Origin: a virus
Virus record (IMG/VR): IMGVR_UViG_3300026488_000020
Location: 1 to 64,000 of that record
Strand: one strand, 5' to 3'
Length of the DNA stretch: 64,000 nt
Position numbers and translations under genes: made by a program. The notes beneath the pieces were generated by a model. That model did no database searches and was not told the origin of the DNA. It saw nothing but the letters and a program-made list of their open reading frames with translations. Below, one piece after another: positions 27,887 to 56,222 of this stretch (positions within the stretch are counted from its first letter, which is position 1; every line of letters starts with the position of its first letter).

Positions 27887-28462
27887 ATGATCAGTAAAAC
27901 ATTAACATGGGACGCAATATCACCTGGTGATAAATTCATAAGTTTCGATAAAGAATACACAATTGAATCAGTTATGGAATCAAAAACTAGTTTTTTATTA
28001 GAAGAATTAGATAGAGGTTTTTTAGCATTTAAAGATATTAATGATGTTGATTGGACATATATACAATCTAAGAATTATTTAGAAGTTAAAGAATCAGATG
28101 CGGATCATCCGCATGATCTTAACATTGTTATGAATAAAAAAGGTAAAGCAATTTTATCGTATTATTTATTTAAGACTGCTAAGAGATTAACATTTGATAT
28201 TTTACAACAATCAGATGAAACTAAATTTAAAGGAGATGATTTTGTAGGTTCGGGATTTGTATTTAAGGCTTCAAATGGTTATGAAGTAATCAGTAGAAGT
28301 AGAATGGATATTCAAACTGAGAGAATATGGTTACATGGTGCAACAACTAATGGTACTGAACATCGTTCAGGAACAATGGTTTTTTCATCGGATGCAAAAA
28401 GAGATATAGCTTATACAGAATTTGTAAAAGCTTTAAATGAATGGGGAGAAAATTATGAATAA
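27887..28462 (+). CDS. Hypothetical protein
   Basis: 191 aa, soluble, beta-rich; begins MISKTLTWDAISPGDKF. A similar opening, TKELVWDDETRNGD, is seen in the protein at 38974. Very strong AAGGAGG site. Directly upstream of QueC and overlapping it by 8 nt. Function unknown. Confidence 0.65.
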   Translation: MISKTLTWDAISPGDKFISFDKEYTIESVMESKTSFLLEELDRGFLAFKDINDVDWTYIQSKNYLEVKESDADHPHDLNIVMNKKGKAILSYYLFKTAKRLTFDILQQSDETKFKGDDFVGSGFVFKASNGYEVISRSRMDIQTERIWLHGATTNGTEHRSGTMVFSSDAKRDIAYTEFVKALNEWGENYE

Positions 28463-29231
28463 TAAATTATGTGTAGTATCAATGTCTGGTGGATTAGATA
28501 GTTCAACATTATTAGCTAGAGCTTTATCCGAAGGTAAAACATGTTTACCTATAAATTACAACTATGGTCAAGTCAATATTGTTGAAATGCACGCTCAAAA
28601 AAATGTATGGAAACATTTTAAAGATATTTATGGGGAACAACTGTTAGATACAATTGTTATTGATTTTACTAGCACCGTTGGTGATGTTATTAAAACATTT
28701 AGAGATAATATTGAGAATGGACACGCTGAAGAAACAACAGATATGAAATATTATATGCCATCAAGAAATCTTTTATTTATGAGTATGGCAGCTGTTGTTG
28801 GAGAAATTATAGCAAATGATAAAAGAATAACTAAACTAAGTTTAGGATTAGGTATTCATCAACATTCAGATATTTATGCAAAAGATTATTGGGATATTAG
28901 TCCACAATTTGCTAGTAAGTTGGCAGATCTTTTGAATTTAAATGATAATCTTGATGTTGAAATATATGCACCATATAAAGATGGATATAAATCTGAAATC
29001 GTAAAAGATTGTAAAACTTTTAAAGTTCCATATAAAAAAACTTGGACTTGTTATGAACCATATAAGTTACAAACTTGGAACGATGGGGACAATGATGGTG
29101 ATGCTATATATCAAAGATATGTTCCATGTTTAACGTGTGAAGCGTGTTTAGAAAGAGAAACACAATCAGAAGGTATCATTGAAGATATTAATGAATATTC
29201 AACAGATATTCAAATCGGTGTGATGGGTTAA
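28455..29231 (+). CDS. queC: 7-cyano-7-deazaguanine synthase (QueC)
   Basis: 258 aa from ATG 28455 (GGGGAG upstream; an in-frame ATG at 28437 is less likely). PP-loop VSMSGGLDSSTLL at residues 8-20, and zinc site WTCYEP...VPCLTCEACLER near the C-terminus. QueC uses ATP and ammonia to convert 7-carboxy-7-deazaguanine to preQ0. In phages this pathway feeds DNA rather than tRNA modification. QueD, QueE and a DpdA transferase are not in this window. Pairs with the Gat-QueC fusion at 40086. Confidence 0.9.
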   Translation: MNNKLCVVSMSGGLDSSTLLARALSEGKTCLPINYNYGQVNIVEMHAQKNVWKHFKDIYGEQLLDTIVIDFTSTVGDVIKTFRDNIENGHAEETTDMKYYMPSRNLLFMSMAAVVGEIIANDKRITKLSLGLGIHQHSDIYAKDYWDISPQFASKLADLLNLNDNLDVEIYAPYKDGYKSEIVKDCKTFKVPYKKTWTCYEPYKLQTWNDGDNDGDAIYQRYVPCLTCEACLERETQSEGIIEDINEYSTDIQIGVMG

Positions 29232-40085: not shown

Positions 40086-41480
40086 ATGTGTTCATTTGTA
40101 AAATTAAATAGTACTAAACAGAGAATTAGTGCACAACTTCCAGTTATATTAGAAGCATTAAATACAAAAGGTGGTGACGAATATACGTTTGTTATCGAAC
40201 ATAATGGATTTATTAACAGAATCACTAATGATGAATTAAATATTCTAAGTAAGTCTATTCCCGAAAATAGTTTTAAAGATATAGTTGATGAAGCATTTCA
40301 CTGTTTATTAGAAGATTTTGGAACATATGATGATTTTAATATTATTGCATTTTCCCGACTAACTCCTGAAATGGAAGAGACTAATAATTTATTATCTCAA
40401 CCATATGTTAGACCAAATGGTGATATTATTGTTGCTCATGGTACAATTCCGAAAGCTGAAGAACTTGCTAAGCAACATGGTATTAGTATTACTGTTGATA
40501 CTGATCTATTCTTTTGGTTAGATTTTAAAACAGTTTGTGATTATACTGAAGTAGTTGGTGGAAAGATATCAGCGATGATATGTAACGCAAAATCGGAGAT
40601 TAAAACATATCAAAATGGTTTAGGTCTTTATGGTTATAAAGTTACACATAATATAACAGGTTATTCATCAGATTATATTTCAAATATTGATTATGATTTT
40701 TTAAAGAAGATTCCAGATTTTGATATACGCAAAGTAAAAACATATGATCGACCCGAACGTGAAGTGTTGGAACCATTAAGATTAATTTCTTTATTTTCTG
40801 GCGGGTTAGATATTACATGTGCAACACAAAAAGCAATTGAAGATTTAGGACCAGATGAAATAAATTTATGGTATTTTGATTGGGGCACAAATGCAGCATC
40901 AGCTGAAATTGAGGCAGGTTGGAAATTTATGAAACGTTTAAAAGCAGAAACAAACATTACTGAAATTAATCATGAAACAATTAAAACTGATCAAATGTTT
41001 AGAGGTATTCTAAGTGCTTGTGATATGAATGGTACTAGATTAACAGATGATAGCGCTGTTGGTGCAGGTGAAGCGGAAGCTGAAGCTGCAATTTCATATG
41101 TTCCATATAGAAATACATTTTTAATTACTTTAGCTGCTGCTAGAGCTGAGCAAATGTATCCTAATGAGCGCATAGCGTTTGTTATTGGGGCAAACTTATC
41201 AGAGGGGATGGTTTATCTTGATAACTCTGAAACTTGGTTACATCGCATTAATGCAATGATTAAAGTAGGAGGTCAAAACACTATTGATTATAGTGTGATC
41301 GCACCATATGTTAACAGAACTAAAACTGCTATGGTTAAAGATGCAATTGATAATAATTTTATTCTTGATACATCATTTAGTTGCTACTTCCCAACAGGTA
41401 TAACTAAAAGCATTCCATGTGGAAAATGTGGTTCATGTTTATTAAAAGAAAATGCTCTTTCAAGAGCAGAAGGAAAATAA
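40086..41480 (+). CDS. Gat-QueC: class II amidotransferase fused to QueC-like synthase
   Basis: 464 aa. Cys2 after the initiator Met and the N-terminal beta-rich domain (to about 220; NGDIIVAHGT, YGYKVTHN) fit a class II glutamine amidotransferase. The C-terminal half is QueC-like: LISLFSGGLDITCATQKA (PP-loop 238-242) and the Cys cluster SCYFPTGITKSIPCGKCGSCLL. Gat-QueC proteins are known from archaea and phages, where they turn preQ0 into an amidine (archaeosine-type) or related base. With QueC at 28455 this points to 7-deazaguanine in the phage DNA. AAGGA site. Confidence 0.85.
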   Translation: MCSFVKLNSTKQRISAQLPVILEALNTKGGDEYTFVIEHNGFINRITNDELNILSKSIPENSFKDIVDEAFHCLLEDFGTYDDFNIIAFSRLTPEMEETNNLLSQPYVRPNGDIIVAHGTIPKAEELAKQHGISITVDTDLFFWLDFKTVCDYTEVVGGKISAMICNAKSEIKTYQNGLGLYGYKVTHNITGYSSDYISNIDYDFLKKIPDFDIRKVKTYDRPEREVLEPLRLISLFSGGLDITCATQKAIEDLGPDEINLWYFDWGTNAASAEIEAGWKFMKRLKAETNITEINHETIKTDQMFRGILSACDMNGTRLTDDSAVGAGEAEAEAAISYVPYRNTFLITLAAARAEQMYPNERIAFVIGANLSEGMVYLDNSETWLHRINAMIKVGGQNTIDYSVIAPYVNRTKTAMVKDAIDNNFILDTSFSCYFPTGITKSIPCGKCGSCLLKENALSRAEGK

Positions 41481-53117: not shown

Positions 53118-53483
53118 ATGAAAATAACTCTCCCATCAAAAGATACTGATCATTACGAAATCATGAATTATAAAATCAATTTTAACATTGATCTAAAATC
53201 AATTAAAGTTGATAACGATATTTTTGAGGATATGCAACGATACACGCTACCAATATTAGATAAACATTTATCTAAAGTTTTTAAATTATATGGTGATGTT
53301 ATGCGCAAAGATACAAAAAGACTTAGATTTAAATATGTTATTGAAAAACTTGATAATCCTGAAAAAGTTATTGATGATTTAAATGATAAATTAAAGCATA
53401 TTTTTAATGTTGCGAGTATAACATATTTAAAAAAAGGGACTGATTATATGATTATCATATGGATTGGTCAAAAGGAGAATTAA
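53118..53483 (+). CDS. Hypothetical protein
   Basis: 121 aa, mixed alpha/beta, no motif. AAGGAG site. Stop overlaps the RNA ligase start. Confidence 0.6.
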   Translation: MKITLPSKDTDHYEIMNYKINFNIDLKSIKVDNDIFEDMQRYTLPILDKHLSKVFKLYGDVMRKDTKRLRFKYVIEKLDNPEKVIDDLNDKLKHIFNVASITYLKKGTDYMIIIWIGQKEN

Positions 53484-54541
53484 TGGTAAGAATGATAAAA
53501 TATAATAAGATTGGTGATTTTAAAAAAGTTATTCGATCAATAAAAGATCAAGCAAAATATGATGGTATTGCAAGATTACCTACAATTGAGTTTGATGGTA
53601 CTGAAAAAATTCATGGTACAAACGCGGCAGTCTGTTATTCACATTCCGATGGCTTCTGGGTACAGAGTCGAGAAAGAGTTTTAACAATTGCTGAAGATAA
53701 TTTAGGATGTGCTTACGCAGCATATAAACATGAAAATGAATGGACAACGCTGCTTTTAGATTTAGCAAAGTCACATAATGTTGATCTAGATAATGAAATT
53801 CTCACTATTTATTATGAATGGGCTGGAGGATCTATTCAAAAGAAAAGTGCATTGACTGGTCTTGATAAAAGATCAATAATATTTGCACATGCGAAAGTAT
53901 CTCCTCTATTACCTGATCCAAAAATTGTTAAATCTGAACATCAACCTGCATATTGGGTTGATACTGTAGACGATGATGGAAATTATATAATGAATGCTGA
54001 AGCAGAAATTTATAATGTCTTAGCATATACAACTTGGAGAATTGAAATAAATTTTAATAATCCAGAAGCATCAGTAAATGATCTTAACAAAACACTTCAT
54101 GACAATGAATCAAATTCCCCTATTGGAAAATATATGGGAATCGAAAACAATGTTTTAGAAGGTATGGTATGGACAGGTAGAAATACTGATGGCACCCTTT
54201 TAAAATTTAAAGTTAAAGGTGAGAAACATACTGTTTCAAAAGTTCGCACATTAAAACCAGTTGATGATGTTAAAGAGCAGGCTAAAAATGATTTGATTAA
54301 ACTTGTATGTAATCCTTCAAGATTAGAACAAGGCTGGCAGCTCATATTTGGTGCAAACAATGAAAAGAAAAGACCAGAGAAAACAGACATTCCTGATTTT
54401 CTAAGATGGGTAATTAATGACATCATGGATGAACATGTTGATGATTATTTTGAAGCAAACATTGAGCCGAAAGAACTCAATGGAAAGATTAGCACTGTTG
54501 CAAGAATATGGTTTCTTGATCAGTACGCGGCATCAGAATAA
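53483..54541 (+). CDS. RNA ligase (Rnl2-like nucleotidyltransferase)
   Basis: 352 aa from ATG 53483 (AAGGAG just upstream and TAATG overlap; the in-frame ATG at 53459 is less likely). Motif I is EKIHGTN with Lys42 as the adenylated residue. A IYYEWAGG segment and motif V-like EGMVWTG..TLLKFKVKGEKH follow. T4 Rnl2-type ligases seal nicks in RNA. It could repair phage or host RNA cut during infection. Stop overlaps the GGDEF gene. Confidence 0.8.
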   Translation: MVRMIKYNKIGDFKKVIRSIKDQAKYDGIARLPTIEFDGTEKIHGTNAAVCYSHSDGFWVQSRERVLTIAEDNLGCAYAAYKHENEWTTLLLDLAKSHNVDLDNEILTIYYEWAGGSIQKKSALTGLDKRSIIFAHAKVSPLLPDPKIVKSEHQPAYWVDTVDDDGNYIMNAEAEIYNVLAYTTWRIEINFNNPEASVNDLNKTLHDNESNSPIGKYMGIENNVLEGMVWTGRNTDGTLLKFKVKGEKHTVSKVRTLKPVDDVKEQAKNDLIKLVCNPSRLEQGWQLIFGANNEKKRPEKTDIPDFLRWVINDIMDEHVDDYFEANIEPKELNGKISTVARIWFLDQYAASE

Positions 54542-55056
54542 TGAAAATTGTTTTAGAAGGTGAAACCTTAGAGGAGCAACTTGAACATGCAAAAAGATTG
54601 ATTGAAAAATATCGAATGGATAAACTAACAGGTTTATATCGTAGAGATGATTTTGATGAAACTATAACTAGATTTATATCAGAATTTAATTCAAAACGCA
54701 AAGATTTTTTAGTTGCATTGGTGGATTTGAATGATTTACATAATCTAAACTACACTCATGGTTATGATTATGGTGATGATAAGTTAGTGCAACTTGCTGA
54801 CTCATTATTAGAGGTATTTGATAAATCTTTAATTTATAGAATTGGAGGCGATGAATTTGCAATATTGTGCAGACAAGAAACATATGAATCCATTTATTTA
54901 AAATTAGATTCACTTGGATGTAGAGACCATATTGAATTTGGAATTGTTGATACAATTGGAAAAGATTTATCACACACCAAAGGAAAACATTTTGTTAAAG
55001 AAGCTCATGCTATTTTAACTTCACATAAAAGAGAAAAGAAGATAGCTCGTAAATGA
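54541..55056 (+). CDS. GGDEF-domain protein (possible diguanylate cyclase)
   Basis: 171 aa. MDKLTGLYRRDDF opening of the domain, LVALVDLNDLHNLN with metal-ligand Asp62, GYDYGDDKL, and an intact RIGGDEF (GGDEF at 102-106). The RxxD inhibitory site is absent (FDKS at that place), so product inhibition is not expected. No sensor domain: only about 25 residues precede the GGDEF domain. Would make c-di-GMP or a related dinucleotide from GTP. Very uncommon in phages. Ends in a hairpin that overlaps the stop. Confidence 0.85.
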   Translation: MKIVLEGETLEEQLEHAKRLIEKYRMDKLTGLYRRDDFDETITRFISEFNSKRKDFLVALVDLNDLHNLNYTHGYDYGDDKLVQLADSLLEVFDKSLIYRIGGDEFAILCRQETYESIYLKLDSLGCRDHIEFGIVDTIGKDLSHTKGKHFVKEAHAILTSHKREKKIARK

Positions 55057-55097: not shown

Positions 55098-56222
55098 ATG
55101 ACAGAAAACGATAATATAACAACATTGGCTGTTCCAGAATACATTACAGCCGAGCTTAATATTCAAGAAGTAAAAGAAGAATATAATAAGTTTATGGAAG
55201 CATCAAGAAGTGTTTCTGAAGAGATTGCTGATGTTATTAATGTAAAAGAGATTCAAGATATTGCAGATTTGATTAAACAATTCAATGACCGATTAGAAGG
55301 AACTGTTGAAGTTGAACAACAATCAACTACTGAAAAAGCAACAGGTAAAACGATTCAACGTTTATCAATGATACCATTTATTGGTAAATTTTTAGAAGAT
55401 GATGCTACAGAAGCGAAAGAGAAAGAAGAAAAATCTAAAACAGCTAGAAGTATTCTACAAGAAATGTTTGATGTGTTCACAGAGAAATCTGACATGTTAT
55501 CATTATCATTTGAGAGAGCATTTAAATTGAGAGAGATTCTTTTAGCAAAAGAAATTAAACTTAATATGTTTAGCACGCAAGTAAAATATATAGTTATGAA
55601 TACTGATAATCCTATGGATAAAATCAACGCTATTAAACTTGGTGGATTAGTTGAAGCAAATAAACTTAAAAATAAAGAAAAGATTTATAATAAACTTGAC
55701 TTTATTTTACAATTCATTGAAGAACAATTAACTACAATTTCGTTGATGATGCCTGGTATAGAAACAGGTTTAGTTGAAGATTCTGAAATTGCAGATTTCT
55801 TAACATCTGTTGCTGATATGAATAAAATATTTAAATCGTTAACTGATTTATCAAATTCTGTTGGGCGTGCAAGTTCAGAAAAAGTTATGACTTTAATCAC
55901 TGAAGTTAATGAATCTATGTCTGAGACAGTAGATATTGAACATATGGAAAAGCTTGCTGCGACCAATAAGAAATTTATGGATCGTATGATTAAAGGAACT
56001 GAATCAAAGATTCGTCGAGATGCAACATCATATGGAAAATTGATGGATATTGGTCAATCACTTGATCAAAATGTTATAGCATATCAATCATCTGCTAAAA
56101 AGGTTTTATTGGAATCTAAAACATATATGGGTGCTCTTGATTCCGCAGTTGAAGAATCTTTTGAGGCTTCAATAATTGAAGTTGAATCAGATCCTAAAGG
56201 CACAGTTATCACCGCTGAGTAG
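55098..56222 (+). CDS. Coiled-coil protein, TelA-like
   Basis: 374 aa, almost all helical. QRLSMIPFIGKFLED and the later helical array (AKEIKLNMFSTQVKYIVM, SVGRASSEKVMTLI) recall TelA-family proteins, linked to tellurite and phage-resistance phenotypes in bacteria, but similarity is weak. First of three consecutive helical proteins (55098, 56226, 56926). AGGAG site. Confidence 0.5.
   Translation: MTENDNITTLAVPEYITAELNIQEVKEEYNKFMEASRSVSEEIADVINVKEIQDIADLIKQFNDRLEGTVEVEQQSTTEKATGKTIQRLSMIPFIGKFLEDDATEAKEKEEKSKTARSILQEMFDVFTEKSDMLSLSFERAFKLREILLAKEIKLNMFSTQVKYIVMNTDNPMDKINAIKLGGLVEANKLKNKEKIYNKLDFILQFIEEQLTTISLMMPGIETGLVEDSEIADFLTSVADMNKIFKSLTDLSNSVGRASSEKVMTLITEVNESMSETVDIEHMEKLAATNKKFMDRMIKGTESKIRRDATSYGKLMDIGQSLDQNVIAYQSSAKKVLLESKTYMGALDSAVEESFEASIIEVESDPKGTVITAE

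Follow-up and report, generated by a model that had tools for sequence, protein, structure and literature searches.

The gene at 54541–55056 of the window, by which we mean the whole 64,000-nucleotide stretch of DNA analysed here, encodes a phage protein that is a GGDEF domain with a short N-terminal helix. On the sequences compared, it belongs to a branch of putative diguanylate cyclases that is phage-restricted and previously undescribed, although stand-alone phage GGDEFs as such are already known. We hold with moderate confidence that the protein is a constitutive, coil-dimerised phage diguanylate cyclase whose product, c-di-GMP, overrides the signalling of the host. Enzymatic activity taken alone appears quite probable, while the specific outcome for the host is proposed with less confidence than the statement as a whole.

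In many bacteria, c-di-GMP determines whether the cells swim or live attached, and the phages of this branch probably drive the c-di-GMP signalling of the host directly in infection. In the open-access papers, we found no account of a phage-only GGDEF branch spread across many large phages that are otherwise unalike, and none of paired phage genes for a cyclase and a phosphodiesterase such as those described below. If the enzymes are active, direct control of host second-messenger levels by a lytic phage becomes testable with one small gene.

Domain content and predicted structure

The window lies within a virus record of 84,234 bases (29% G+C), which carries the genes for a split multisubunit RNA polymerase, topoisomerase II subunits, and an RNA ligase. 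In tblastn comparisons, the RNA polymerase genes matched those of Rhizobium RHph_TM-type, Yersinia phiR1-37, and similar phages with an identity of 22–25%. No close named phage relative was found, and a 20-kb DNA search gave no match. The window contains no tRNA genes and no Rfam families at the gathering score. The features discussed below are collected in Table 1.

Table 1. Positions of the GGDEF gene, its neighbours, and the residues considered, numbered within the window
Feature	Position	Strand	Remark
Upstream RNA ligase (phrog_548, E 8e-39)	53459..54541	+	Stop overlaps GGDEF start by 1 nt (TAATG)
GGDEF-only protein, putative phage diguanylate cyclase, 171 aa	54541..55056	+	ATG start
N-terminal helix, residues 7–24, putative coiled-coil dimerisation stalk	54559..54612	+	Model helix 10–25; group-wide hydrophobic pattern
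D62, metal-binding Asp (PleD D327 equivalent)	54724..54726	+	32/32; aligned to DgcR
H67 where Lys is usual (PleD K332 equivalent)	54739..54741	+	His in 28/32 of group vs 18/80 bacterial
N70, guanine-contacting Asn (PleD N335 equivalent)	54748..54750	+	32/32; DgcR register
Y75 for the usual His of GHxxGD (H340 position)	54763..54765	+	Tyr in 26/32 of group; His in 79/80 bacterial
D79, Asp reading the Watson-Crick face of guanine (product specificity)	54775..54777	+	Asp 30/32, Asn 2
I-site position, four residues ending five before GGDEF: FDKS	54817..54828	+	RxxD absent
GGDEF signature, residues 102–106	54844..54858	+	
K163, phosphate-binding Lys (PleD K442 equivalent)	55027..55029	+	32/32; aligned to DgcR terminal Lys
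Downstream 374-aa protein, relative of L001 5006-6031	55098..56222	+	L001 copy lies five genes before GGDEF there

The domain search of the 171-aa protein gave a match to PF00990 (GGDEF) over residues 26–115, with an E value of 2e-15 and 57.4 bits (cut-off 23.8), and nothing credible besides. Only 26 residues lie upstream of the domain core, 16 of them in a predicted helix, and there is no sensor region. The AlphaFold2 model of the protein, built with 18 relatives, had a mean pLDDT of 87.6 and a pTM of 0.78. When the model was compared with solved structures using Foldseek, it matched the diguanylate cyclases 5llx, 6ttr, and 6zxb with E values from 1e-10 to 6e-10, and its TM scores by query against PDB GGDEFs of 0.7–0.8 showed the GGDEF fold. 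The agreement of the model with solved diguanylate cyclases (E ~1e-10) confirms, far beyond chance, that the gene encodes a genuine GGDEF-domain protein.

The best match among solved sequences was DgcR, a response-regulator diguanylate cyclase (6zxb/6zxc/6zxm). All the main active-site positions of the two proteins align, and no gap interrupts the alignment between the metal Asp and the specificity Asp (VDLNDLHNLNYTHGYDYGDD in the phage protein over IDIDKFKNINDTYGHEIGDQ). DgcR differs in having a receiver domain, the canonical FK and GH, and a longer stretch after the GGDEF motif, which comprises roughly 80-odd residues compared with about 58 in the phage protein, so that ~25 are missing from the latter.

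The hydrophobic residues before the domain are spaced 3-4-3-4 in nearly all members of the group, the spacing that a short coiled coil ahead of the GGDEF domain would show. In bacterial cyclases (PleD, WspR, DgcB-type), a coil at the same place joins the halves of the dimer. Taken together, the spacing and the position suggest that the phage protein has kept the stalk and dropped the sensor.

A branch of stand-alone GGDEF proteins restricted to phages

Relatives of the protein were gathered by scans of IMG/VR, and a further alignment scan of viral_contigs gave these loci once more. The search for the gene in related phages, which the earlier note had recommended, yielded at least 31 stand-alone relatives, all in one branch. 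Together with the protein of the window, the group comprises at least 32 proteins of 147–222 aa from otherwise dissimilar phages, and the median identity inside the 32-member branch is 31%.

For the comparison with bacteria, the best 80 matches from 84,980 genomes were used. In the tree of 20 phage proteins and these 80 bacterial matches, the phage proteins formed one branch (SH-aLRT 99). In the enlarged tree, to which 12 further members, gp350 of phage G, the Yuavirus protein, and others were added, the branch consisted of 32 rows (SH-aLRT 96). Meanwhile, other phage stand-alone GGDEFs (Yuavirus AN14, L186, phage G gp350, L020, L022/L024, and L180) were placed outside it. As these proteins fall elsewhere in the tree, the sequences indicate that GGDEFs were captured several times by phages and that the 32-member group is one diversified branch. 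The searches made here found no bacterial members of this branch, and the fecal "Bacteriophage sp." matches examined were large multidomain cyclases of bacterial type.

The group is marked by the N-terminal coiled-coil pattern, a shortened C-terminal half, the changes of FK to LH and GH to GY, and an invariant Lys at the phosphate position. The nearest bacterial proteins in the larger tree were clostridial GGDEFs (DxNGLHELNNxxGHxxGD; e.g. L077, L079, L093), although this link is weak (85–89). They have both the LH change and the absence of RxxD in common with the phage group, but are multidomain proteins of 300–900 aa, which keep GH and the Asn after the guanine Asn.

Two kinds of known phage proteins resemble the group. 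Yuavirus and Vojvodinavirus members (Pseudomonas YuA and AN14; Bordetella CN1 and LK3) likewise have a sensorless stand-alone GGDEF of ~150–170 aa (PMC10333796, PMC8471281). However, these are temperate siphoviruses, and the Yuavirus-type protein has the canonical DxDxLKxIND..GH..GD, lacks the N-terminal coil signature of the group, and lies outside the 32-member branch (L031, L186). Lysogens of LK3, which carries such a stand-alone GGDEF, are hyper-biofilm formers, a property that was not tied to the gene (PMC8471281). The other protein is gp350 of Bacillus phage G, annotated as "GGDEF motif diguanylate cyclase" and likewise a GGDEF of a very large phage; it differs from the group in its length of 254 aa, its hydrophobic N-terminal part, and its canonical motifs, and is placed among bacterial GGDEFs.

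The distribution of the group also bears on the possibility that the gene is a lineage-specific capture of a host GGDEF, useless to the phage and carried as a passenger or a decaying remnant. The neighbourhood of the gene does differ between relatives, with no neighbour gene conserved across the group, which speaks for such a capture. This explanation nevertheless seems very improbable to us, since the frame is intact, the active site is conserved, and a single branch extends over many dissimilar phages while being absent from bacteria in the searches made here.

Active-site residues and the I-site

The earlier note described a phage GGDEF protein with intact catalytic residues and with neither an I-site nor a sensor, and the alignment of the group bore this out. 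Residues D27, T30, D62, L66, N70, G78, R100–F106, and K163 were identical in all 32 members. It should be noted that the invariance of [YF]RIGGDEF is partly by construction, because this block served as the search motif, while D62, N70, D79, and K163 lie outside the motif used in the scans that supplied most members. As positions that played no part in the search motif do not vary among the 32 relatives, whose median identity is given above, the activity appears to be under selection.

Several other positions depart from the canonical enzyme (Table 1). No Asp or Asn follows N70 (the D336 position) in the 20-member phage set, whereas 79 of the 80 bacterial relatives have one; PleD R446 has no clear or fixed Arg equivalent in the phage group, in contrast to the invariant K163. 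The exchanges of K332 for His and of H340 for Tyr, the loss of the Asp after N70, the missing R446, and the shortening by ~25 residues could reduce or abolish turnover, and the main doubts concern the first two of these and the missing equivalent of R446. We read the His and Tyr changes as probably tolerated, because the His also occurs in 18/80 bacterial relatives and the remaining active site is conserved. The possibility raised previously that the changes around GYDYGDD make the protein inactive has become less likely, as Tyr is the norm of the group and the other catalytic residues are kept.

The same positions would be the mark of a catalytically dead GGDEF that is kept for binding GTP, c-di-GMP, or a partner, like the degenerate domains of FimX or LapD. 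Such a role would agree with the changed K332, D336, and H340 positions and with the shortened C-terminal half. We regard it as unlikely, because known degenerate GGDEFs mostly lose the GGDEF motif itself, D62, N70, D79, D104, E105, and K163 are kept over the 32 divergent members, and the metal Asp and the catalytic Glu would be needless in a pure receptor.

The product of an active enzyme is predicted by position 79. The Asp equivalent to D79 makes GGDEFs specific for GTP, and the Hypr GGDEFs, which make cGAMP, carry Ser at this position and become diguanylate cyclases when the Asp is restored (PMC6456294). In the phage protein, position 79 is Asp and not the Ser or Thr of the Hypr signature; it predicts GTP specificity and c-di-GMP as the product. 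The suggestion of another cyclic dinucleotide in the earlier note loses ground for this reason.

With the catalytic residues intact and FDKS at the I-site, the protein is probably a diguanylate cyclase not subject to feedback by its product, as had been supposed. The missing I-site is, however, nothing special to the phage protein: RxxD was found at this site in 0/32 members of the phage group and in only 4/80 of the nearest bacterial GGDEFs, the other 76 being likewise without it. Judging from these counts, the I-site was lost either before the bacterial kin arose or together with them, and phages did not invent this loss.

According to the mechanism that we favour, two copies of the protein would pair via the short N-terminal coiled coil, which stands in for a sensor, and each half-site would bind one GTP. 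Metals would be held by D62 with D104/E105, guanine by N70 and D79, and phosphates by K163, and the product would be 3',3'-c-di-GMP. In the absence of a sensor and an I-site, the output would be set by the expression of the phage gene. The c-di-GMP of the host would then rise during infection and yield a non-motile or surface-attached cell; alternatively, the envelope or metabolism might be changed otherwise to the benefit of the phage.

The overlapping RNA ligase gene and other neighbours

The earlier note considered the overlap of the GGDEF gene with an RNA ligase gene an odd pairing, and the two products could in principle be partners: the palm fold of GGDEFs has relatives among Thg1-type 3'-5' polymerases, and the protein could be an RNA-repair nucleotidyltransferase. 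The 1-nt overlap is in line with this, as is the presence in L001 of an RlaP-like RNA-repair gene, located three genes downstream of the GGDEF. However, an RNA ligase adjoins the GGDEF gene in no other member. A ligase was recognisable in six of 20 records, and its distances from the GGDEF gene there were chance-like (Fisher p 0.22). Same-strand neighbours overlap in 31 of 85 pairs in the window, the overlap being exactly 1 nt in 11 of these pairs, and for this reason the ligase overlap amounts to ordinary packing. On these grounds, the RNA ligase was rejected as a functional partner. As the sequence is, in addition, plainly that of a GGDEF with the guanine-pocket residues kept, a role in RNA repair appears extremely improbable.

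The gene downstream of the GGDEF (55098-56222 in the window) and its relative in L001 (L001:5006-6031) encode a helical protein of 341–374 aa, which is found near the GGDEF in both phages. By eye, it has a TelA-type likeness; no Pfam match was obtained. Elsewhere in the window, two QueC-like proteins are encoded at 28437-29231 and 40086-41480, the first of which is common to L003 and L007. Judged from the sequences and the shared matches, the pair suggests a DNA modification of the preQ0 type.

Links to c-di-GMP in related phage records

The related records were examined for other c-di-GMP genes. In the 110-kb record L006 (IMGVR_UViG_3300026484_000095), an HD-GYP gene (L006:7418-7993) lies directly upstream of the GGDEF gene and overlaps it by 8 nt. 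Its HD-GYP-type domain matched PF13487 with 105 bits and contains the motif HDIGKVKIP ... HHHEKWNGEGYP. HD-GYP proteins are known c-di-GMP phosphodiesterases, and it is possible that the two genes of L006 form a module for making and breaking c-di-GMP. The 224-kb record G002 (IMGVR_UViG_3300026521_000471) has four GGDEF domains, one of them in a dCache-GGDEF-EAL membrane protein (L155:3852-6029) and the others in three further proteins. The dCache-GGDEF-EAL gene is flanked by phage-type replication genes and has genes for a DnaB-type helicase, an HD-domain protein, and a Band-7 protein beside it. Because of the HD-GYP overlap in L006 and the GGDEF-EAL protein in G002, guilt by association in these two records only points to c-di-GMP as the product.

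In the 84-kb record of the window, which may be incomplete, neither a second GGDEF nor EAL, HD-GYP, or PilZ genes were found. PilZ receptors of c-di-GMP were present in 0/20 records, and the c-di-GMP-I riboswitch RF01051 also gave matches in 0/20, the positive controls likewise being without a match, so that the riboswitch result carries no weight. We propose only tentatively that the group is an old lineage of c-di-GMP synthases confined to viruses, accompanied in some genomes by a phosphodiesterase of the phage's own, and that the phage and not the host sets the level of c-di-GMP in infection.

A cyclic dinucleotide might instead serve mainly against cyclic-nucleotide immunity, as a decoy or competitor for CBASS or Panoptes-like sensors, rather than change the lifestyle of the host. 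Phages fight cyclic-nucleotide defences, and Panoptes employs decoy nucleotides (PMC12657218). Its OptS/mCpol minimal CRISPR polymerase is likewise a small stand-alone palm-domain cyclase making cyclic dinucleotides (PMC12657218), but this is an ATP-using bacterial defence protein without a GGDEF motif, whereas the phage protein has a guanine pocket. Genes for YAcAr (SLOG family, PF10686), a family thought to handle nucleotides, tend to lie near the GGDEF gene in 6 records, a weak, post hoc association (Fisher p 0.008), and the window's own phage record has no YAcAr gene. No OptE-like partner was recognised among the neighbours scanned and no defence-related gene was found beside the GGDEF. 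Since D79, moreover, predicts c-di-GMP, unlike the cA or cGAMP of most such systems, we consider a main role in counter-defence quite unlikely.

In L001, the YAcAr gene (L001:7580-7975) overlaps the GGDEF gene, and YAcAr genes are also near the GGDEF at L011, L015, and L062. Two further types of GGDEF-like phage proteins were seen. Phage proteins of ~410 aa whose GGDEF-like domain is highly divergent (HIRMDGNDFGGINKVHG...FRIGGDEFHAFVPSHEHAA) occur at L175, L182, L191, and L194 and are near-identical among contigs. At L025, L026, L028, and L029, GGDEF domains lie inside phage proteins of 3,200–3,700 aa, which are possibly delivered with the virion.
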